Shown here: one piece after another, positions 10,889 through 30,579 of the stretch
How the letters are laid out: every line of letters begins with the position of its first letter
Numbering within the stretch: the first letter of the stretch is position 1
Assembly: GCF_006442795.2 (NCBI RefSeq)
Contig: NZ_CP083956.1
Span: 5,309,501-5,373,500 of the forward strand
Direction of reading: 5' to 3'
DNA from: Mesorhizobium sp. B1-1-8
GTDB lineage: Bacteria > Pseudomonadota > Alphaproteobacteria > Rhizobiales > Rhizobiaceae
DNA: 64,000 nt
The notes under the pieces: model-generated
What the model was told of the DNA's origin: nothing
Databases searched by the model: none
What the model saw: the letters and a program-made list of their open reading frames with translations, nothing else
Position numbers and translations under genes: made by a program

Positions 10889-11902
10889 TTACCGTTTTGC
10901 TTCGATCGACGTGCCGACCAGATGTGATTCCAGTTGTGCGACCAACCCGGCAAGACGGACATGCATGGCGTCGAATGCTGCCCAACGTTCTGTAAGCTTA
11001 TTGAGGCGGTAACCAGGTTCGGTGCCGTTTCCCTTGATATAGGCCAGTAAATCCGTTTCACTGATATTGATGGGCGCGCCACTGGCACACTTGCGGAGCC
11101 AAGCTACAAAATCCTCGCCGCGTGCTTGCGCCGCCTCCTGTTCGCGCTGTGAGGCAGTTTTGGTAAGAACGTGCCCGTATTTGGTGGCGAATTCGAGCGG
11201 CGTGCCCTCGAAATCCGGATCAACTTCTTCCGGCGTTAGAAAGTTGGTCTTCGGAATGTTGCGGCGGAATTCCAGCCCGCGTTGATAGATTTCCTCGGCG
11301 GCGGATTCCTTGGCGGCGGATCGCTTAGCAGCGGTCCGCTTGGCGTGCGGGCCCTTCGGCGGGCGCGCTTTTTCTGATGCAGCTTGAAGCCTGATTCTCT
11401 TGTCCTCGACAGCCTTTTCCAGTTCCGGCGCGTACTGAATAATAGTGCGGGCTCGGGCAAGCGAACCCGTAGAAACTTCCATGATCAAAGCCGCTTCCTT
11501 AACGAAACGATTGTGACCAGGGAGGCTAGGATCACGCGTCGCGCCGGTAGGCATTTTTACCTTTTCTTGGAACTGAATTTGTTGCTTTAAATGCGCGAGC
11601 CTTGCCGCCGCGAAAGCCCGCCGTTCGAAGGTTGAATGTTGTCGCCGATAGTCGTTGAGCGAAACGGCCAGATTAAGCGCATCAATATCGTTTGACGTCC
11701 CTGTATGTTGGAAGCGCGGCTCAATGCCCGCCTCAACGCAGGCGCGGTAGCGGGCGCGCCCGTCTAGAATCCTTCCCTGATAAAGCACGACAGGCACGCG
11801 CATACCGTTGGCCTTGATATCGGCCACGAATTTCGCAAAATCCTCGCCGCTCAGAAGAGGCCAGATTTCGGCGAAAGGATGATCTTGATAGTGAACAGCC
11901 AT
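10889..11902 (-). CDS. ParB-like nuclease-domain protein
   Basis: This 337-residue protein has an N-terminal ParB/Srx-like domain: PLLSGEDFAKFVADIKANGMRVPVV, then ILDGRARYRACVEAGIEP with the DGR-R motif at 47-52. A Lys/Arg/Ala-rich linker (residues about 175-210) precedes a C-terminal region without recognised family. It is not the chromosomal ParB, because it has no adjacent parA and no ParB HTH with spreading motif. Such proteins occur on phages, plasmids and islands. It follows the DGQHR-motif protein by 59 bp and is probably co-transcribed with it. Confidence 0.75.
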   Translation of the reverse strand: MAVHYQDHPFAEIWPLLSGEDFAKFVADIKANGMRVPVVLYQGRILDGRARYRACVEAGIEPRFQHTGTSNDIDALNLAVSLNDYRRQHSTFERRAFAAARLAHLKQQIQFQEKVKMPTGATRDPSLPGHNRFVKEAALIMEVSTGSLARARTIIQYAPELEKAVEDKRIRLQAASEKARPPKGPHAKRTAAKRSAAKESAAEEIYQRGLEFRRNIPKTNFLTPEEVDPDFEGTPLEFATKYGHVLTKTASQREQEAAQARGEDFVAWLRKCASGAPINISETDLLAYIKGNGTEPGYRLNKLTERWAAFDAMHVRLAGLVAQLESHLVGTSIEAKR

Positions 11903-11961
11903 TTGGTTCTGTCCCTGCGGGAGAGATAGAGGCGCATTCGCGCGCCTCCCCGTTGAACGTC

Positions 11962-12951
11962 TTATGCGGCCTCGGCTTGTTTCTGTATGAAACGCGGGAA
12001 CGCTTCATCGACTCTCAGACTGATTTTCTTGACCTGCTCGCCAGCCACCCAGGCATTAAATGCCTTGATGACATGCGCCAAGACCTGATGTTTCTGCATC
12101 GGCTCCTTGGCAACGCTGTTGAATTTCAGGACATGCTGCAAAGCCGCAATCGGGCTTCCCGCGCCGAATTCCTCACCCTCGGAACCCACGTCATTCATGA
12201 ACTCGTCGAGAGTGAATTCATCATGGAGGTCGAGAATCTTGACCGCTGCAAAGGCTGCGACATCGTTATGGCCGATTATCGCGGACGCGGAGGCATGCTC
12301 GCCCGCCATCAATTGAGCGCCTCTACGAACGTTCGGATTCGCTTCGACGTAGTCGATGAATTGCTTAGGCGACATGCGCGGAAGACGATGCTTCTTCGTT
12401 GCCGTGTATGCCTTGTTTTCGTAAAGCTGGGCAATCGCGACCGTTTGTGCAGTCAACGCCGAAAGACCGTTCAGACCCGCCGTGGCCAACGCATCCTTGG
12501 CAGTGCGCGCCTTGACATTGTCGATGTAGGCGAAGGCTGATTTGATCGGCTTGCGCTGATTGACGATATACGTTGCGAACGGTACCCCGGAAAGATAGCA
12601 AGCCCAAAGCCGATGCTGGCCGTCTAATAGCTTGCCGTCTACGTCGAAAATCAGCGGTTGGCCGGTTTCGGGCCAATCCTCCGCGGCCATCTGCTCGGCA
12701 TAGTAAACGATGTTCGCCAATACAGCCTTGCGATTGGACCCAGCTGGGTTCTTTAGCAACAGCCTTTCGGCCGTTTCCGGGGTAATGATGTGCCAGCCGT
12801 CGGAAAGCTTGTCCTCGCTTTCCGGCTGGGTTTTCCTCCATTCCTCGAACTGATCAACCAGCGCGTAGAACGTGTTCGAATTGGCGGTTTTGAGTTCAAG
12901 ATGGAATTTCGGCTCCCATACGGGCGCCGCTGCTTTTTCAACATCACTCAT
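11962..12951 (-). CDS. ParB-superfamily-like protein with DGQHR motif
   Basis: This is a 329-residue protein. The segment QPLIFDVDGKLLDGQHRLWACYLSGVPFATYIV (DGQHR at 110-114) resembles the ParB/Srx catalytic loop, in which the motif is DGxHR. The rest is mostly helical, with a long C-terminal region (NDVAAFAAVKILDLHDEF to AFNAWVAGEQVKKISL). Proteins of this kind are common in phages and integrated elements, with no established function. It sits between two other accessory genes on the same strand. Confidence 0.6.
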   Translation of the reverse strand: MSDVEKAAAPVWEPKFHLELKTANSNTFYALVDQFEEWRKTQPESEDKLSDGWHIITPETAERLLLKNPAGSNRKAVLANIVYYAEQMAAEDWPETGQPLIFDVDGKLLDGQHRLWACYLSGVPFATYIVNQRKPIKSAFAYIDNVKARTAKDALATAGLNGLSALTAQTVAIAQLYENKAYTATKKHRLPRMSPKQFIDYVEANPNVRRGAQLMAGEHASASAIIGHNDVAAFAAVKILDLHDEFTLDEFMNDVGSEGEEFGAGSPIAALQHVLKFNSVAKEPMQKHQVLAHVIKAFNAWVAGEQVKKISLRVDEAFPRFIQKQAEAA

Positions 12952-22094: not shown

Positions 22095-23423
22095 TGTCCG
22101 AACCGGATAGATAGGTAACAGAATGGACCGATTAGATGGGTGACAGTTTTCTTGTCCGCCGGGAGGACCGGCGATGGTTTGGCGAGAGACTGGGCTCATG
22201 GATGAGCGGCTTCGTTTTGTTGCGGAATGCCTATCTGGCGAGGAGACGATGACGCAGCTTTGTGCTGCCTTCGAGATCTCGCGCAAGACCGGTTACAAAT
22301 GGCTTGGACGTTACCGGGCGTTCGGGCCGGAAGGCCTGCACGACCAGCCGCGGGCGCCGCTCGAGCACGGCCGTGCCACGGCAGCGGAGCTGGTGGAGCG
22401 GATCGTGGCGCAGAAGGAAGCGCATCCGCTGTGGGGGCCGAAGAAGATCATGGCCCGGCTGAAGCGGGCGGAGCCCAGCTGCAGCTGGCCGGCGGTGTCG
22501 ACAGCCGGCGAGATTCTGAAGCGGCATGGCCTTGTCGGGCGTCGGCGCGCGCGCTGGAGAGCGGCGGGCAACGGTCCATGGCCGGAGCCTGAGGCGGCGA
22601 ACGCGCTGTGGACGGGAGATCACAAGGGCTGGTTCCGGACCGGCGACGGCTGGCGCTGCGAGCCGCTGACGGTGATGGATGGGGCGTGCCGCTACCTGTT
22701 GGCGCTGGCGGCGATCGGCTCGACGTCGGAGGGTGAAGCCTGGCCGGTGTTTGAACGGACATTCGAGGAGCATGGCCTGCCGGATCGGTTCAGAAGCGAC
22801 AATGGGGCGCCGTTCGCGTCAGCCGGCGTCACCGGGCTGACGCCGCTTGCGGTGCGCTTCATCAAGCTCGGTATCGTGCTGGAGCGCATTCAGCCGGGCA
22901 AACCGCAGCAGAACGGATGCCATGAGCGCTTCCACCTGACCATGCTGCCGCTGGCCAAGGCGCCGGAGGCCGACAGGGCCGCCCAGGCTCGGGCTTTCGA
23001 GGCTTTCCGGCGCGAGTATAACGAGGAGCGCCCGCACGAGGCGCTGGGTATGGACACGCCGGCACAGCATTACCGCCCCTCGACCCGCGCCATGCCGAAG
23101 ACGACACCAGAGCCGGACTATCCGGCCGAAGCTGCGGTGCGCAGCGTGCGCCAAAACGGCGAGATCAAGTGGAACGGCGACTTCATCTACGTCTCAAAAG
23201 CGCTGGCCGGTGAAGCGATTGCCGCAACCGAGACCGAGAATGGGGAATGGGCACTCCACTTCTATGCCCATCCGCTCGGCTTCATTGACGGCCGACACAA
23301 GAAACTGGTCCGCCGCAGTGCCGTTCAACCCCGACCAGACGGCACTGCGGCGGACAGCAACTCAGGGAGAAAACTGTAACCCATGTATCCGGTTCAAAGT
23401 GTTACCCATCTATCGGCTGGACA
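22095..23423 (+). mobile_element. complete IS481-family insertion sequence
   Basis: The element is 1329 bp. Its left end reads TGTCCGAACCGGATAGATAG and its right end, inverted, reads TGTCCAGCCGATAGATGGG; both then run into GTAACA, giving imperfect terminal inverted repeats of about 25 bp that start with TGT as in IS481. CGCG is duplicated on both sides (22091-22094 and 23424-23427). One intact transposase fills the element, so it may be active. Confidence 0.88.
22174..23379 (+). CDS. IS481-family transposase
   Basis: This is a 401-residue DDE transposase. An N-terminal helix-turn-helix (residues about 10-60, with [22 protein letters not shown]) recognises the element ends. The rve integrase core holds Asp149 (TGDHKGWF), Asp209 (FRSDNGAPF) and Glu251 (NGCHERFH). 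The C-terminal extension includes [22 protein letters not shown], typical of this family. No frameshift or stop interrupts it. The ATG at 22174 is used; 22198 is an alternative. Confidence 0.93.
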
Positions 23424-23630: not shown

Positions 23631-24047
23631 GTGAACCAAAAAGCCAGTCCAAGGCCACTTTCGGAAATCGCCAGCTATCACGCACATATCTATTACGACG
23701 GGCCGGCCGAGCGGCAGCACGCCGAATGGCTGCGCCGGCGCATCGCAGAACGTTTCCGCGTGCGCCTGGGCAATTGGCGCGACGAGCCGGTCGGCCCGCA
23801 TCAGCAAGCCATGTACCAGGTCTCCTTCGCCACCGAACTTTTTGCGACGCTGGTTCCATGGCTGATGCTGAACCACGGCGGCTTGAGCATCCTCATCCAC
23901 CCGAACACCACCAACCCCAAGCGGGACCATCTGGTTGACCCGATCTGGATAGGCCGGGCGCTGGCGGTGAAGGGCGAGGTTCTTGGCGAGGAGGATGAGG
24001 CGGAAGAGGCGCTGGAGGTGAATACGGAGCCGACGCTGGGGGCGTGA
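23631..24047 (+). CDS. DOPA 4,5-dioxygenase family protein
   Basis: This 138-residue protein matches the small DOPA-dioxygenase-like family. [11 protein letters not shown] near the N terminus and [17 protein letters not shown] in the C-terminal third carry the conserved metal-binding histidines. Related fungal and plant enzymes open catechol rings for pigment synthesis; bacterial members are uncharacterised. I used the GTG at 23631, preceded by GGGGAG. The C terminus is acidic ([11 protein letters not shown]). It borders the candidate defence locus. Confidence 0.85.
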
Positions 24048-24346
24048 GGTGAGGCAAACCTCGCCAGTTCGATTATCCGCCGAGCAGCGAGGCCAGTGCA
24101 CAGTTCCGCGCAGTCTTCCCGTGCCGGACGCAATAGCGCCATGGAATACCTGTCGCCGGCGGTTGGCGGATGAGTTTGTTCGGTCGAAACCCGACCGACG
24201 GCTTCTAGGACTGAGTGTTGCGATCGCTGAAAAGCGCAGCAACTCTTGGGACTTGCGCCCGCGATTAATAAATCGCATCTGAATGGTAGTGGATCTGCGA
24301 CCGAGAAGCGCTAGTGGTTGCATCCACATCGACAAGGGGGGCGCAC

Positions 24347-26618
24347 TTGCCAGGATTTTCCGTCGACACAAAGCTCTTCCGCGAACTGGGTGAGCTGCTT
24401 GTCGGTCGCGAGTCGACGGCTCTAACCGAGCTGATCAAGAATGCTTACGATGCCGATGCCACTGAGGTCACGATCCTTGGAAGGGGAATCGCCGAAGCTG
24501 GCGAAGGCAGTATTATTGTAATGGATAACGGAATCGGCATGTCGGAAGCCGAATTCTCAAGGGGCTTCCTCCGCATTGCTGGTCGTGGGTGCTGATCGGC
24601 GCTCCCCGTGGTTCGAGAGGCGGTATACCGGTGAGAAGGGTGTCGGTCGGCTCGCTGCTCACAAGCTTGCACATGGGCTAGAGGTTCGGTCACGACGATG
24701 GAACGGTGCGGAGCGGGACACTTTGGAGGGGTTTCCTGCTGACAACGAAATCCAAGCGAAGATCGACTGGGACGCGATCGAGGCATTGGAAACGCTAGCC
24801 GATATTGAAGGAAGCGGTGCGGTCGACGTTCGCAGAATAAGCGGCACGCGTCGCCCTGCAGGCACAAGACTGACGCTATCACCGTTGCGTCGCCAATGGC
24901 GCGATCGTGATCGAGAGCGCTTCTTCGAAGAGGTAGCGACTCTGACACCCCCTGACGTTCTGTTGGAACCTCTAGAGAGTGTACTCGCATCACCTCATTT
25001 GCTCGAACGGCTCACTGTCCGTGACGAGCGCCGCGCCGGCGGTTTCCAGGTAAGTTATCGCGGCGATCTGGCGCTGTCTGAAGGAGACCTTCCGGCTGCG
25101 CTGGCTAGCGCATCTTGGATCATTGAGATCGACTGCAAAAAAGAAGAGCGACGCTTGAGGATCGCAGTCACCCCTACCCGACGAACGCTTGCCGAGTACG
25201 GTAACGCTGAAGGTTTCGTCCTCGATCGTCCGCTGGGTGGAAATGACCCCGCTGTTGGGTTTCAGGCCCGCATTCTTCAAATGTCAAACGCGCAGTGGCC
25301 CAAGCGTTATCAAGGTGTGCGGGTATATTACGAGGGCTTCCGCGTCCTCCCATATGGCGATCCGCGCGATGACTGGCTGGAGCTGGATCGTGATTACCGT
25401 TCACGTGGTCATCAGGAACTCGGCCGACTGCGGAGCCGAAGCGCCTGGAATCTGCCCGCCGGCTCCGAGAAGGAAGGTCTCGCTATCCAGGGCAACACGG
25501 CATTCTTCGGTGCGGTACTCCTAACTCGCTCCGGCGCCAACGAGCTACAGATGCTTGTCAACCGTGAGGGCTTTCTGCCCGGTGACCAGTTCACTTTCAT
25601 TGAGGAGACGGTTCGGCTTGCGATCGACCTACAGGTGCGCCTTCGCTACGCAACCACTTCAGAGGTCAAGCAAGCGCGACAGCTTGTGGGCGGCCGGCAA
25701 CAGCGCTCTGCAAGGCGTGCGGCCGCAGGGCAATCCCCGTCCGCCTACTTGCTCCGTGAACTTCACCAAACTGCGCAAACTGCGCTGACTAACGCGCGAA
25801 CGGCGATCTCCGCCGGGCGAAGTACCGATGCGCGAAACCAACTCGAGCAGCTTGAGCAAACGCTCGGCTCGGCTACGGATCTTTCCGACGAAGTGACATC
25901 GGAAGCCACTATGTTTCGAGTACTGGCGTCAATTGGTCTCGAGCACGCCGCATTCGTGCACGAAGTGCGCAGCCTTTCGCTTGCCGCTCAGACGCTCGCT
26001 GACACACTGGAAAGGTTGGCCAATGCAGAGCGAGACGCTCGTAAGGCACGGCAGCTGCGCGCGATCGCCGTCAACGCTAAGGATATCCGTGAGCGGCTTC
26101 GCCGCAATGCCATATATCTTGCGGACGTTACGGGAATTGAGGGCCGGCGCCGTCGTAGTCGGCAGAATCTTCGTGAGCGGATTGAGCGTGTACTCGGCTT
26201 TTTCGAGCGCTCAATAGCCAGGCGACGTGTCGATGTCCGGATCGACGTGTCGAATACGTTGCAAACGCCACCGCTCTTTCCAGCAGAACTAACCGCTATC
26301 CTGAGCAATCTTTTCAGTAATGCGATTAAATTTGCAGGCAATCGGGGGACAGTCCGTATCTCTGCCCGAGAACTCGACGACGTGTTCCAAGTTCGCGTTG
26401 AAAATAGTGGAATTGCCGTGGATTTAGCCACCGCTGAGCGTTGGTTCGAGCCATTCCGTTCGACCACCACAGAGGTTGATGAGTCGCTTGGTCAAGGCAT
26501 GGGGCTGGGATTGACTATCACGCGAAGCCTAATCGATGAATATGGCGGCTCGATCCGATTCGTGCCGCCATCATCCAGCCAGGCCACAGCAATCGAGCTG
26601 GAGCTTCCGCGGCGATGA
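24347..26618 (+). pseudogene. MORC/Hsp90-like GHKL ATPase fused to a histidine-kinase-like half, frameshifted
   Basis: The first frame (24347-24595) encodes TKLFRELGELLVGRE, the N-box LTELIKNAYDADAT and the G1 box VMDNGIGM, then stops after FLRIAGRGC. The next frame continues ADRRSPWFERRYTGEKGVGRLAAHKLA, the G2 box of the same ATPase. Deleting one G of the GGG at 24587-24589 joins them into about 756 residues. The middle resembles MORC/HATPase_c_3 proteins. The C-terminal 250 residues have a coiled dimerisation-like region (EHAAFVHEVRSLSLAAQ) and a second ATPase with N-box ILSNLFSNAIKFA, VENSGIA, FEPFRST and GQGMGLGLTI. I prefer the TTG at 24347, after AAGGGGGG, over the GTG at 24314. It is either inactivated or a sequencing error. 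Confidence 0.7.
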
Positions 26619-27748
26619 CCAAGCCTCACGTTCTGCTGATCGACGATGCCCCGCAATCGGCCACCCTTCCGGATTCCATCCAGGCAATTCCCCTTGACCC
26701 CGAGGACGCGAACTTCGGACCTGACCTCGAAGCAGCGTTGGTGTACGCCGACCTGATCCTGCTAGACCAAAATCTTCACCGCGAACAGGTGTTGGGATTG
26801 GGAGCATTGGATGGGGCTAGCTTCGTCGGCAATCTGCGCTCTTGGGCGCGCGCTAAGGAACTCACTCTCCCGCCAGTTGTAATTTACACCAGTGAATATG
26901 AAGCGTTCGCCGATGAAATCCCGACGCTTGGTCCGGCGGTGCCGCTCGAGGGAAGTTTCATCGGCAAGGAGGCGCGCATCGCGTCGGCGCTAGACGTTGA
27001 GTGGCTTATCCCTAAGGATGAGAACTATTCCGTCGGGCATATCGCCAGCCTTGCACGTGATTGTCTATTGCTGCGCGCGGACGCAGCGGATGCAAGGATG
27101 AACTTGCAAGAAATCAGCGACTTCCTTGCCGTTCCACGCGACCAAGCTTGGTCTGAGATCGCGGTCGGCCAGATCGCCAAGTGGCGTCCGCCAATAAACG
27201 AAGCCGGCAATGCGCCCGCAGGAAGCCGGGGGGTGACTCCGGTGCTGCGATGGCTGCTTCACCAAGTGCTCCCATGCCCCGGCCTACTCCTTTCCGATCT
27301 CTATGCGGCTTGGTCGCTTGGAATCGAGCCTAAGAGTTTCTCAGCCCTGTACCAATCTGCAAATACGCGAGACTGGGTGCAAGCGCTTCGCGCTACTTGC
27401 TACGGCGGTGCGGCTAAGGATCTTGTTAATCGCCGCTGGTGGGCAGCGGGCATAGACTTTATTGGGTGGCGCCTACGCGAGCGTGGCTACGAACTGGGCA
27501 GTTTCCAGCATGCACTAGATGAGTTGGCCGGACCAGGGCTTATGCCACTTGCGGCAGCGGAGTCGGTCGTGGTGGTCAATGTCGATCTTGAGGAGGCCGG
27601 CATTGCCGCACTCGAGGATGCAGTTCAGATTTACCCACCTGGTTGGCCGACAGAAGCGGTCGATCCTTGGATGCGCCGTGACGAAGTGAAAGCCGATCCG
27701 GTGGCGCAAACGATGATCGATCTGACGGAGCTGCCTGTCGTCGAATGA
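26615..27748 (+). CDS. receiver-domain protein with an unrecognised C-terminal region
   Basis: The N-terminal third of this 377-residue protein has response-regulator receiver signatures: acidic pair Asp10-Asp11 (VLLIDDAP), phosphoacceptor Asp51 (LILLDQNL), Thr92/Ser93 (VVIYTSEY) and Lys134 (WLIPKDE). The spacing between Asp51 and Thr92 is longer than in CheY. The remaining 240 residues show no DNA-binding HTH that I recognise. They contain LHQVLPCPGLLLSDLYAAWSLG and are mostly helical. The start overlaps the kinase-like gene by ATGA, so it is the natural phosphotransfer or allosteric partner of that protein. Confidence 0.75.
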   Translation: MTKPHVLLIDDAPQSATLPDSIQAIPLDPEDANFGPDLEAALVYADLILLDQNLHREQVLGLGALDGASFVGNLRSWARAKELTLPPVVIYTSEYEAFADEIPTLGPAVPLEGSFIGKEARIASALDVEWLIPKDENYSVGHIASLARDCLLLRADAADARMNLQEISDFLAVPRDQAWSEIAVGQIAKWRPPINEAGNAPAGSRGVTPVLRWLLHQVLPCPGLLLSDLYAAWSLGIEPKSFSALYQSANTRDWVQALRATCYGGAAKDLVNRRWWAAGIDFIGWRLRERGYELGSFQHALDELAGPGLMPLAAAESVVVVNVDLEEAGIAALEDAVQIYPPGWPTEAVDPWMRRDEVKADPVAQTMIDLTELPVVE

Positions 27749-28473
27749 GCTTTACATTCAATCCCGACTACATGGCGCAGGATTTGCTAGCGCTCGCGCG
27801 AGGCGCTGCGGATTTCTTGGCTCCGCGATCACTGGTGCGCGTGGAACGGCTGACTACCAACCTGCGCAACGCGGTTGCAAATGCTAAGGCTGGTGGGCAG
27901 GCAAGCTTCGCTTGGCGGACCGACGCAGACGCCCCGATTCAAGTCCGCGCGTCCAAAAGTTGGAAAGGCGGCACCGACGATTTTGACCCAATTGCTGCGG
28001 ATATTCGGCTGGATTACGCCTGCCAATTTCTACCAGCGACCGGCCGAGTAAAGATCAAAGGCGTGGCGGTGATTGTCATTCGTGACATCGGCGGGGGCGG
28101 TGAGAAGGTTGTTCACTTCGATGTCGATGAAGGGGGCTGGAGCGAGGTAGTCAATGGCCAGCCCGTCCATCGTGCAGGTCACCCGCCTTTCCACGCGCAA
28201 TTCTATGGCGTTCTCAATGATATTCCGCGCATGCCCAGCCTCATCGTATATCCGGTCGACGTCATCAACTTCGCAATCCTCGAGCTCCATCAGAAGAATT
28301 GGAGACAGCACGTCGAATCATTTCAGGCAAAGTCGCAACTGCGCAATTTTCCACCTCGACAGCGCGAACGCCTTGCCGCGATCCTACAATGTTGGAGCGG
28401 GACGGTTTGCAATCCCGACTTCCATCCTTTGGTAGCCATGCAGCGCCCGTTCGGCGAGCCTCTTTCGTTTTGA
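27745..28473 (+). CDS. unrecognised protein of the candidate defence locus
   Basis: I do not recognise this 242-residue protein. It has no signal peptide or membrane segment. The C-terminal half has a strikingly ordered segment, GHPPFHAQFYGVLNDIPRMP followed by SLIVYPVDVINFAILELHQKNW, with two close His residues and a hydrophobic helix that could be a core packing unit. A basic tail (FPPRQRERL) precedes two cysteines. It overlaps the receiver gene by ATGA and ends directly against the convergent methyltransferase gene. Its fixed place suggests an effector or adaptor, but that is inference. Confidence 0.7.
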   Translation: MSFTFNPDYMAQDLLALARGAADFLAPRSLVRVERLTTNLRNAVANAKAGGQASFAWRTDADAPIQVRASKSWKGGTDDFDPIAADIRLDYACQFLPATGRVKIKGVAVIVIRDIGGGGEKVVHFDVDEGGWSEVVNGQPVHRAGHPPFHAQFYGVLNDIPRMPSLIVYPVDVINFAILELHQKNWRQHVESFQAKSQLRNFPPRQRERLAAILQCWSGTVCNPDFHPLVAMQRPFGEPLSF

Positions 28474-30009
28474 CTAGCGTCCACGCCGCATTTGGCGGCG
28501 TGCGCATAATTCCGCCCGGAGTGCCGCGAGCAGGCGGCGCCAATCGCGCCCCAGCAACGGTGCGACGAGCGCTTCATCCGCCAGTTCCGTCGCTATGTCG
28601 TGCTCGCCGCGACGCAGCGCTGCATCAACGCTGGCGAAGATAGCTTCCATTGAACCGCTCGCCGGCAAGATCGGCATTCCGCGCGCGTCCTTGAGTTCAA
28701 ATTTGAGGACGCCGCCGCCATAGCTACGTCCGCCGCGCTCGGCGGCAAGCTGCCCGAAACTGGAGAGGAGGCTCAGCGATGCAGTAAGCCGGATTTCGCG
28801 CGACACATCAGGATTGAAGCGCACGCTATGCAACGTGTTGGTGCAGCCAACGGTATCGTAAGTTAACACAAGGCGAGGACCACGGTCGTTCATGTACGTG
28901 AAGATTGCGTCGCAATCGGGAACATCAATCTTCCACCACGGAGAGCGCTTGGATAACCACAAAATGGACCGTCGAGATTTCGGTGAAATCTTTGCAAGCT
29001 GGGCACGACCGCCCGAGTTTTTGATGGCTATTCTTGGCGATGCTAACAGCCAAGTCTTTTCGCCAGCGTGCGCCCGCTCGATCAACTGAGCAGCGCTAGT
29101 TGTGAGGCCAGGAATTTGACGCCCGCGCGACGCCACGGGCCGAACTTCGCTCCGATCAATGCCCATCAGGAGTCGCTCATCCTCATTAAGGAGGAAGATT
29201 CTGTTGCAACCGGTTACAGCTCCGATACGTAACTCCGCGATAGTACCGAGTGGGGTCGCATACCGTGCTAGCTGTTCAAATACCGCGTCCGCACGGACGA
29301 TCTCACCAGCCGGCTGGCCGTTGACCATCCAGCGCTTAGGGTCAGGTAGCGAGCACGCGCCCTGCGCAAAACCTTCGGCGAGTATGAGCGCTCCGCGCTC
29401 GTCGGCGTTGTTGCTCCAGAGCGGCCTGTCGGCAAATTCTCGGATTTCGACATTAGCAAACCGATGGCAGAGACGATCAAGTGCGGTGCGGCCGTAGTCG
29501 CTGAACAGACCTGACGCAGGAATAATCGCGGCAAGCCGCCCACCAGGCAGCAGAAACTCCAGCGCGTGGATCAAAAAGTGCACCCAAAGCCCGGCGGCGC
29601 CCGGCACAGAAAAGCGGTCCCGTAGTGCAACTCGACGGCCCTTCTCAAGGCTATGATTGCGTGTGAAAGGTGGATTGGTCAGGACGCCATGAAACAGGCC
29701 AGTGCTAGCCGGATCAAGCTGAAGAAAATCAATAACGCGCGCATCACAATCAGGAGCAACATGCGGAATGACTGTCTCGATGACGTGCGGATTAACATCG
29801 CAGGCCAGCACGCGGATCTTGGAGCTTCCGTGCATCGCAATCGATCGCCGTACCGCGGCTTCAATAAGGGCTCCCTCGCCGACGCTTGGTTCAAGAATCC
29901 GCTCGCATCCAGTGCGGACGAGCCAATTTGCGAGCATATCGGCTAGCGTCTGCGGTGTGTAAAATGCACCGAGTGATTTCGGTTTCCGGAAGAGGGCGTT
30001 TGACGACAT
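28474..30009 (-). CDS. N6-adenine DNA methyltransferase, NPPF type
   Basis: This is a 511-residue SAM-dependent DNA methyltransferase. Motif X is GAFYTP (14-19), motif I is LEPSVGEG (39-46), CDVNP at 70-74 is motif II, and motif IV NPPF is at 112-115, the signature of gamma-type N6-adenine methylases. A C-terminal region of about 300 residues is the likely target-recognition part and ends in an Arg-rich tail (CARRQMRRGR). No endonuclease domain or separate specificity subunit is evident. It is convergent with the preceding gene, with adjoining stops. Confidence 0.85.
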   Translation of the reverse strand: MSSNALFRKPKSLGAFYTPQTLADMLANWLVRTGCERILEPSVGEGALIEAAVRRSIAMHGSSKIRVLACDVNPHVIETVIPHVAPDCDARVIDFLQLDPASTGLFHGVLTNPPFTRNHSLEKGRRVALRDRFSVPGAAGLWVHFLIHALEFLLPGGRLAAIIPASGLFSDYGRTALDRLCHRFANVEIREFADRPLWSNNADERGALILAEGFAQGACSLPDPKRWMVNGQPAGEIVRADAVFEQLARYATPLGTIAELRIGAVTGCNRIFLLNEDERLLMGIDRSEVRPVASRGRQIPGLTTSAAQLIERAHAGEKTWLLASPRIAIKNSGGRAQLAKISPKSRRSILWLSKRSPWWKIDVPDCDAIFTYMNDRGPRLVLTYDTVGCTNTLHSVRFNPDVSREIRLTASLSLLSSFGQLAAERGGRSYGGGVLKFELKDARGMPILPASGSMEAIFASVDAALRRGEHDIATELADEALVAPLLGRDWRRLLAALRAELCARRQMRRGR

Positions 30010-30333
30010 GACTCAAATTAGCAGGTTGGTTGCGATATGTCTCGAGAGACTTCCGGGAGTCTTGGCGAGTTTCGAAAAGCGACTGTGGACAACGCCACAA
30101 GCTGTAGTGCGTCGGTCGGATGATCAGCCTGACACCGGAGTGGTGGTTGATGCGTCGTTCTGTAGCCCGTCCCTGCCGGCCCTACGCTATCTGTTTTCGG
30201 GATCTGACGGAGCTTGTCCTACGACTGACCTGCGCGTCTCCATCCATACTATATACACTCGAACTATCGGTGCAGATCAGACGCAGGCATTGTTGACGAG
30301 CAGGCACGTGTCCTGGCTTCCCGGCCTCGCTGC
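30010..30333. other. 324-bp gap at the right edge of the candidate defence locus
   Basis: This gap lies upstream of the methyltransferase start (30009) and downstream of the MoaD-like gene (30334). A forward frame covering 30008-30409 is open but has no recognisable family, no good ribosome-binding site and runs antisense into the MoaD-like gene, so I do not call it. The methyltransferase promoter should be here. I see no tRNA or att-like repeat. Confidence 0.45.
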
Positions 30334-30579
30334 TTACCCCCCAGCCAACCGCGGCAGCAAAAAAATCTCCGCCCCCGGCGGCAGCTTCTTCCCCCAAGTA
30401 TCCCTATAAATCACCCCGTCGATCGAAACCGCAATTCCCTTCTCGATGTACGGCTCCAGGCCGGGATACTGTTCAGCCAGTTTCCTGAACAGCTCCCTGA
30501 TATCCCTGGCCTCGACCTCGACCTTGCTCTGGCCTCCGGCGAGCGTGCCTAGCGATCCCCAGAGCGTCACCTCGACCAT
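30334..30579 (-). CDS. MoaD/ThiS-family ubiquitin-like sulfur carrier
   Basis: This 81-residue protein has a beta-grasp fold pattern (VEVTLWGSLGTLAGGQSKVEVEA, then FRKLAEQYPGLEPYIEKGIAVSIDGVIY) and ends in Gly-Gly (LPRLAGG), the tail that is adenylated and thiocarboxylated in MoaD and ThiS. It lies just downstream of a molybdenum hydroxylase operon, so a role in molybdopterin synthesis is likely. A dedicated sulfur-carrier role beyond housekeeping MoaD is possible. The ATG at 30579 is the family's normal start. Confidence 0.85.
   Translation of the reverse strand: MVEVTLWGSLGTLAGGQSKVEVEARDIRELFRKLAEQYPGLEPYIEKGIAVSIDGVIYRDTWGKKLPPGAEIFLLPRLAGG

Follow-up and report, generated by a model that had tools for sequence, protein, structure and literature searches.

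We analysed a 64,000-nucleotide stretch of the Mesorhizobium sp. B1-1-8 genome (contig NZ_CP083956.1, positions 5,309,501 to 5,373,500; hereafter the window), in which a sequence-only reading had proposed a candidate defence system consisting of a MORC/kinase hybrid ATPase, a receiver protein, an unrecognised third protein and a DNA methyltransferase. All four genes are present as described, except that the first is split by a broken frame within its N-terminal ATPase. On the forward strand, the GHKL gene begins with a piece (24314–24595) that encodes motifs I and II of a MORC-like HATPase_c_3 ATPase (Pfam expect value (E) 1.2e-11) and ends in TGA. The remainder of the protein lies in a different frame (24576–26618) and carries ATPase motif III, a middle region with an NREGF motif conserved in the alignment, the kinase histidine of the DHp helix (residue 462 of this open reading frame, ORF) and a C-terminal HATPase_c domain (Pfam E 2.1e-17). 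The receiver gene (26615–27748, forward) encodes 377 residues, with a receiver domain over about residues 1–135 (D10, D11, D51, T92, K134) and a C-terminal domain without assigned function. It is followed on the same strand by the gene for a 242-residue protein of no known family (27745–28473), here called P242. The receiver start overlaps the GHKL stop by four bases, as the P242 start overlaps the receiver stop. An N6-adenine DNA methyltransferase of 511 residues is encoded on the reverse strand (28474–30009) and faces the other three genes as originally noted, its gene and that of P242 ending on adjacent bases.

Residue conservation was assessed across 22 kinases, 22 receivers, 21 P242 proteins and 21 methyltransferases, with the third ORF of a Clavibacter plasmid copy (L042) removed. 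The kinase histidine is conserved in all 22 members, each with E or D directly after it, and the N and G boxes are present; the intact kinase of the Histidinibacterium copy (L002) contains HATPase_c_3, a DHp-like helix and HATPase_c according to Pfam. The canonical receiver residues (D/D/D/T/K), whose retention in the window protein had been pointed out, are conserved in 22/22 members, and the receiver fold is present. Because the active-site residues of both proteins are conserved throughout, a phosphorelay between kinase and receiver is likely. The methyltransferase belongs to Pfam N6_Mtase and Eco57I, carries FYTP, LEPSVGEG and NPPF motifs (NPP is invariant in 21 members), scores E 2.5e-51 against a PADLOC type II model and is weakly related to M.TaqI (E 1.1e-4) and M.BseCI (E 2e-4); by family and motifs, it would qualify as the sequence-specific DNA methyltransferase of a restriction-modification (R-M) system. 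Neither the receiver protein nor P242 matched any Pfam family or any PADLOC 2.0.0 model (library of 2023) to E 1, and Pfam recognised no DNA-binding output domain in the receiver protein, which was searched whole and not with its C-terminal domain alone. P242 has six invariant residues (H150, P161, R162, P170, E180 and W186) and a confident structural model (predicted local distance difference test, pLDDT, 94) with no significant fold match.

The GHKL gene is one uninterrupted frame in all 21 relatives. In the window copy, the frame breaks at 24584–24595, between ATPase motifs II and III, and a lysine invariant in 21/21 relatives falls inside the missing stretch. The N-terminal sensor ATPase of this copy is broken unless the assembly is in error here, which it may be. 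Because its sensor is broken in this genome, the window copy of the cassette is probably partly or wholly inactive. It is indeed probable, and compatible with a defensive role for the family as a whole, that we are looking at a remnant in decay, in which the methyltransferase and the kinase half survive with no defence function, as the broken frame, the lost lysine and the presence of a single copy of the locus in the genome (DNA search) would suggest. A remnant sits less easily with the state of the rest of the locus, since the other ORFs, that of P242 among them, are full length and catalytic residues are retained in the receiver, the methyltransferase and the second part of the kinase. It also sits less easily with the possible assembly error and with the existence of natural kinases lacking this domain: for a related system, 34 of 222 HEF_HK proteins are reported to have HEF_HK and HATPase_c without HATPase_c_3 (PMC8011034).

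Recurrence of the four-gene cassette

When GTDB genome contigs were scanned using the receiver alignment, 17 loci emerged, spanning Pseudomonadota, Gemmatimonadota, Latescibacterota, Acidobacteriota, Chloroflexota, Planctomycetota and Actinomycetota, the phyla being those given in the record titles. Clustering of neighbouring ORFs of at least 90 residues recovered a GHKL protein, a receiver and P242 in 17/17 of these loci and the methyltransferase in 16/17, and the kinase gene adjoins the receiver gene in all 17 loci and in the window. The 242-residue and 377-residue proteins are not scattered independently of each other, and the methyltransferase is not an orphan core gene, the two outcomes that would have counted against the original proposal. 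The phylum search also gave two weak receiver matches, one spanning positions 5–108 (E 3.8e-5) and the other positions 211–249 (E 4.9e-4). Five records were not counted as new relatives: L020, L027 and L038, from a contig equal in length to the L003 record, and L085 and L086, which are the same DNA as L005 and L012.

A search led by P242 found the protein in 4/259 and 2/237 genomes of two phyla, search centres included. Kinase, receiver and methyltransferase are adjacent in all six loci, four of which had already been found through the receiver and two of which were new. A plasmid copy in Rhizobium sp. TH2 (L041) has all four genes, and the third gene of the Clavibacter plasmid copy has no match to P242. 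Gene order recurs in the kinase-receiver-third gene series, which is constant across members, but the position of the methyltransferase gene is not fixed. Among the 21 members that have it, this gene is co-directional and upstream in 10, co-directional and downstream in seven, convergent in three (the window included) and divergent in one. The pairwise distances of the four families correlate (r 0.71 to 0.92), and none of 2000 permutations reached any of these values; this test covered 19 members, omitting L013, which has no methyltransferase, and counting the third ORF of L042 as P242 despite its lack of a hidden Markov model match. The four genes belong together as one unit.

The cassette is sporadic, occurring in 2/397 genomes of the order (its own included) and in none of the eight other genomes of the genus that were listed. 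GC content is 0.58–0.59 at the locus against 0.63–0.69 over the bulk of the window, where further dips also occur. Both observations fit horizontal gain of the cassette. As to carriage by phages, no match was found in 50,697 phage records, and 40 pattern stretches in viral contigs yielded none that was confirmed. In the Histidinibacterium copy, a phage-type integrase gene (L002:13642-14766) adjoins the methyltransferase gene, a sign of mobility.

Outside the four core families, the clustering found just three that recur, each shared by two loci. The two Bradyrhizobium loci (L003 and L004) have in common a C5 methyltransferase and a Vsr nuclease, and L006 and L012 a protein of no known family. 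The Bradyrhizobium copies have the C5 methyltransferase and Vsr besides the adenine methyltransferase (L003:5046-6188, 11886-12266; L004:5001-6131, 11838-12329).

The chromosomal slot

The cassette occupies a variable slot (24050–30332) between a DOPA-dioxygenase-family gene (23631–24047) and a ThiS-family gene (30334–30579). Relatives of the same genus keep both flanks but enclose other DNA. We searched 14 same-genus genomes for the downstream flank and took ten slots (L063-L072), leaving out G418, G414, G069 and G136; in G069 and G136 the two flanks stand in reverse relative orientation. In nine of the ten relatives the enclosed DNA measures 3.7 to 9.8 kb. In the tenth, L067, it measures 13.6 kb up to the closest fragment of the dioxygenase gene and about 19 kb up to the complete gene.

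The ten slots hold 54 ORFs, of which we ran 20 against PADLOC. Matches at E <= 1e-5 were obtained in seven of the ten slots, a result that is a strong indication and not a statistic because the ORFs were picked by size. The strongest matches were to Upx (E 8e-214), DRT8 (E 3.2e-149) and Dsr1 (E 2.7e-97). Further matches were to the methyltransferase and specificity subunits of type I R-M, accompanied by a PtuA-like ATPase, to a type II methyltransferase (E 2.1e-45) with an LmuB/PbeC-like protein (E 1e-10), to a TIR domain (E 4.6e-11) and to an endonuclease effector domain (E 1.7e-18). As a control, ten large ORFs elsewhere in the window, chosen by hand from the 30 of at least 420 residues, gave no PADLOC match. 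With other cargo at this position in same-genus relatives and PADLOC matches in seven of ten slots, the gap between the two flanking genes appears to be a hotspot for defence genes in the genus.

Three minor observations concern the slot and its borders. Within their slots, L067, L068 and L070 keep additional, incomplete copies of the flanking genes, as if cargo had entered by recombination at the flanks. The slots of L063-L065 may hold undescribed defence genes. In the window, an IS481-like transposase lies at 22174–23379, just upstream of the dioxygenase-family gene.

Relation to described systems

The combination of ATPase, receiver and modification enzyme was not recognised as a known one in the original reading, but similar pairs beside R-M genes were published in 2021. 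In the account of Bellieny-Rabelo et al., proteins of HATPase_c_3+HEF_HK+HATPase_c architecture are coupled with Response_reg_2 proteins in the vicinity of R-M genes, for the most part C5 methyltransferases (PMC8011034). The resemblance to our cassette is considerable, as both have a kinase with HATPase_c_3, a DHp His-Glu and HATPase_c that is homologous over its full length (hhalign probability 100, E 2.6e-53), a neighbouring receiver with canonical residues and a DNA methyltransferase next door. For comparison, we gathered 13 loci of the 2021 type using PF19192 (3/199 genomes of the order and 10/398 genomes of the phylum), one of them in a stretch of only 7 kb.

Several differences separate the two. 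As called, the kinase has 985–1155 residues in the 2021 system and 754–852 in the cassette, and the receiver protein has 542–721 and 370–461, respectively. The cassette methyltransferase is an N6-adenine enzyme, whereas Pfam identified a C5 enzyme in all three of the 13 loci of the 2021 type that were scanned; among the 17 cassette loci, a C5 methyltransferase occurs beside L003 and L004 only. The cassette receiver, P242 and methyltransferase families were found in 0/13 loci of the 2021 type at E <= 1. Receivers of the two kinds show weak likeness (hhalign to the 13 proteins, probability 68), and P242 has no counterpart. PF19191 (HEF_HK) was absent from the matches of the window GHKL pieces (to E 1) and of the L002 kinase (to E 0.1); two 2021-type loci (L024 and L026) score above its cut-off and a third (L025) just below. 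For PF19192 (Response_reg_2), the window receiver had no match, with no family found to E 10, and 6/40 relatives matched, with a best E of 0.014. Because the window and most relatives fail these two models, the receivers are only weakly alike and P242 lacks a counterpart, the cassette is, as judged by sequence comparison, a sister variant of the 2021 HEF_HK/Response_reg_2 system rather than a member of it. A possible bridge between the two system types is seen in Bradyrhizobium, whose loci combine the two kinds of methyltransferase with Vsr. Our searches of open-licence papers turned up no description of the N6-methyltransferase/P242 variant.

R-M operons that encode MORC and paraMORC GHKL ATPases were described by Iyer et al. 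in 2008 (PMC2292703), and the cassette shares with them a MORC-type N-terminal GHKL ATPase in an R-M neighbourhood. In paraMORC proteins an S5 domain comes after the N-terminal GHKL ATPase; in the cassette, a GHKL ATPase and a methyltransferase are present, along with the NREGF motif of the alignment. It differs in having a second, kinase-type ATPase and in having no helicase or endonuclease constant in its neighbourhood, and the available text of that account contains no mention of 'receiver' or 'two-component'. With canonical two-component systems, the cassette shares the DHp histidine, the N and G boxes, the receiver D/D/D/T/K residues and the receiver fold; unlike them, it has a soluble MORC-type ATPase as sensor, no recognised transcription-factor output, and a methyltransferase and P242 as partners. 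A HATPase/REC system, which may or may not be this cassette, is among the predicted, non-validated DefensePredictor systems (PMC13092281). A Shedu protein with a GHKL domain has also been described (PMC12137116).

A proposed restriction-like role and its alternatives

The four genes are co-inherited, the kinase and receiver active sites and the methyltransferase motifs are conserved, and the locus lies in a defence slot. On this basis, we think it somewhat probable that the cassette is a self-contained, horizontally spread, restriction-like antiphage system gated by a two-component phosphorelay. In this model, the methyltransferase would mark host DNA at an adenine motif, and the MORC-like N-terminal ATPase of the GHKL protein, on meeting foreign or unmarked DNA, would undergo ATP-dependent closure. 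The C-terminal histidine kinase would then be switched on, leading to phosphorylation of the DHp histidine and transfer of the phosphate to D51 of the receiver, whose C-terminal domain would, with P242, carry out or recruit an attack on the invading DNA. We infer that DNA is the stimulus, that signalling runs in this direction and that P242 and the receiver C-terminus act as the effector. A more specific version is possible but tentative: a His-to-Asp relay, triggered by a MORC-type sensor reading adenine methylation, might activate P242, alone or with the receiver C-terminus, as an effector representing a novel type of enzyme or DNA-binding protein.

If the model is correct, a His-to-Asp phosphorelay, normally a gene-regulatory device, is at work in a restriction-like immune cassette whose sensor is a MORC-family ATPase, with a bearing on the role of the 2021 kinase/receiver pairs near R-M genes. 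The idea is directly testable, since the unit is conserved in seven phyla, intact four-gene homologues exist in Histidinibacterium aquaticum (L002:7692-13411) and on plasmid pTH2c of Rhizobium sp. TH2 (L041:4763-10829), and there are residues to target (the kinase histidine, receiver D51 and P242 H150/R162/E180). P242 itself is a small, well-conserved protein.

Several observations weigh against this model. No experiment shows defence by the cassette, and none was found for the sister system in the available part of its description (PMC8011034). Pfam, PADLOC and NCBIfam scans and the P242 fold search pointed to neither a nuclease nor any other effector in P242 or the C-terminus of the receiver, and clustering of the 17 loci revealed no fifth gene constant beside the cassette. 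L013 lacks a methyltransferase of the family and L042 a recognisable P242. The methyltransferase is the loosest partner, with 18% identity to those of L003/L004 while the kinases are 55% identical. At the slot, the four proteins tested from L063-L065 gave no PADLOC match, the ORFs were selected by size and the control was small.

Control of R-M systems was the role proposed by the 2021 authors for the HEF_HK/Response_reg_2 pairs (PMC8011034). The cassette could likewise be a two-component regulator of its methyltransferase or of other R-M genes, with no restriction by the four genes themselves, although we regard this as unlikely. Receiver and kinase are canonical signalling parts, family scans of the four proteins and the P242 fold search found no nuclease, and the two Bradyrhizobium loci also have C5 methyltransferase and Vsr genes. 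However, a regulator is harder to reconcile with a receiver protein in which no DNA-binding output domain was recognised, with a P242 that accompanies the receiver in all 17 loci and shows no regulatory resemblance, or with the fact that, besides the methyltransferase, no common target gene recurs beside the module.

It is more doubtful still that restriction is carried out by the GHKL protein itself, on the pattern of type II enzymes that bear an ATPase, with the receiver and P242 only tuning it. Piece 1 does resemble the GHKL region of the BbrUII/HgiDII family of restriction enzymes (NF050001; E 1.2e-11, 75 residues) and PADLOC REase_II models (E 5.7e-7), but this likeness covers the shared ATPase region only, its NF050001 score of 43.9 bits is far below the cut-off of 550, and the remaining parts of the protein resemble a histidine kinase. 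NF050001 is not among the 25 of 68 matches listed for GHKL piece 2. A link through BbrUII-type methyltransferases as adenine enzymes was considered and dropped, as M.HgiDII and M.BbrUII are described as 5-methylcytosine enzymes in PMC5867850.

Returning to the restriction-like model, one copy contains a candidate optional effector: in Rhizobium sp. TH2, a gene annotated as a GIY-YIG nuclease (L041:10842-11771; Pfam: DUF4357) starts 13 bases after P242.
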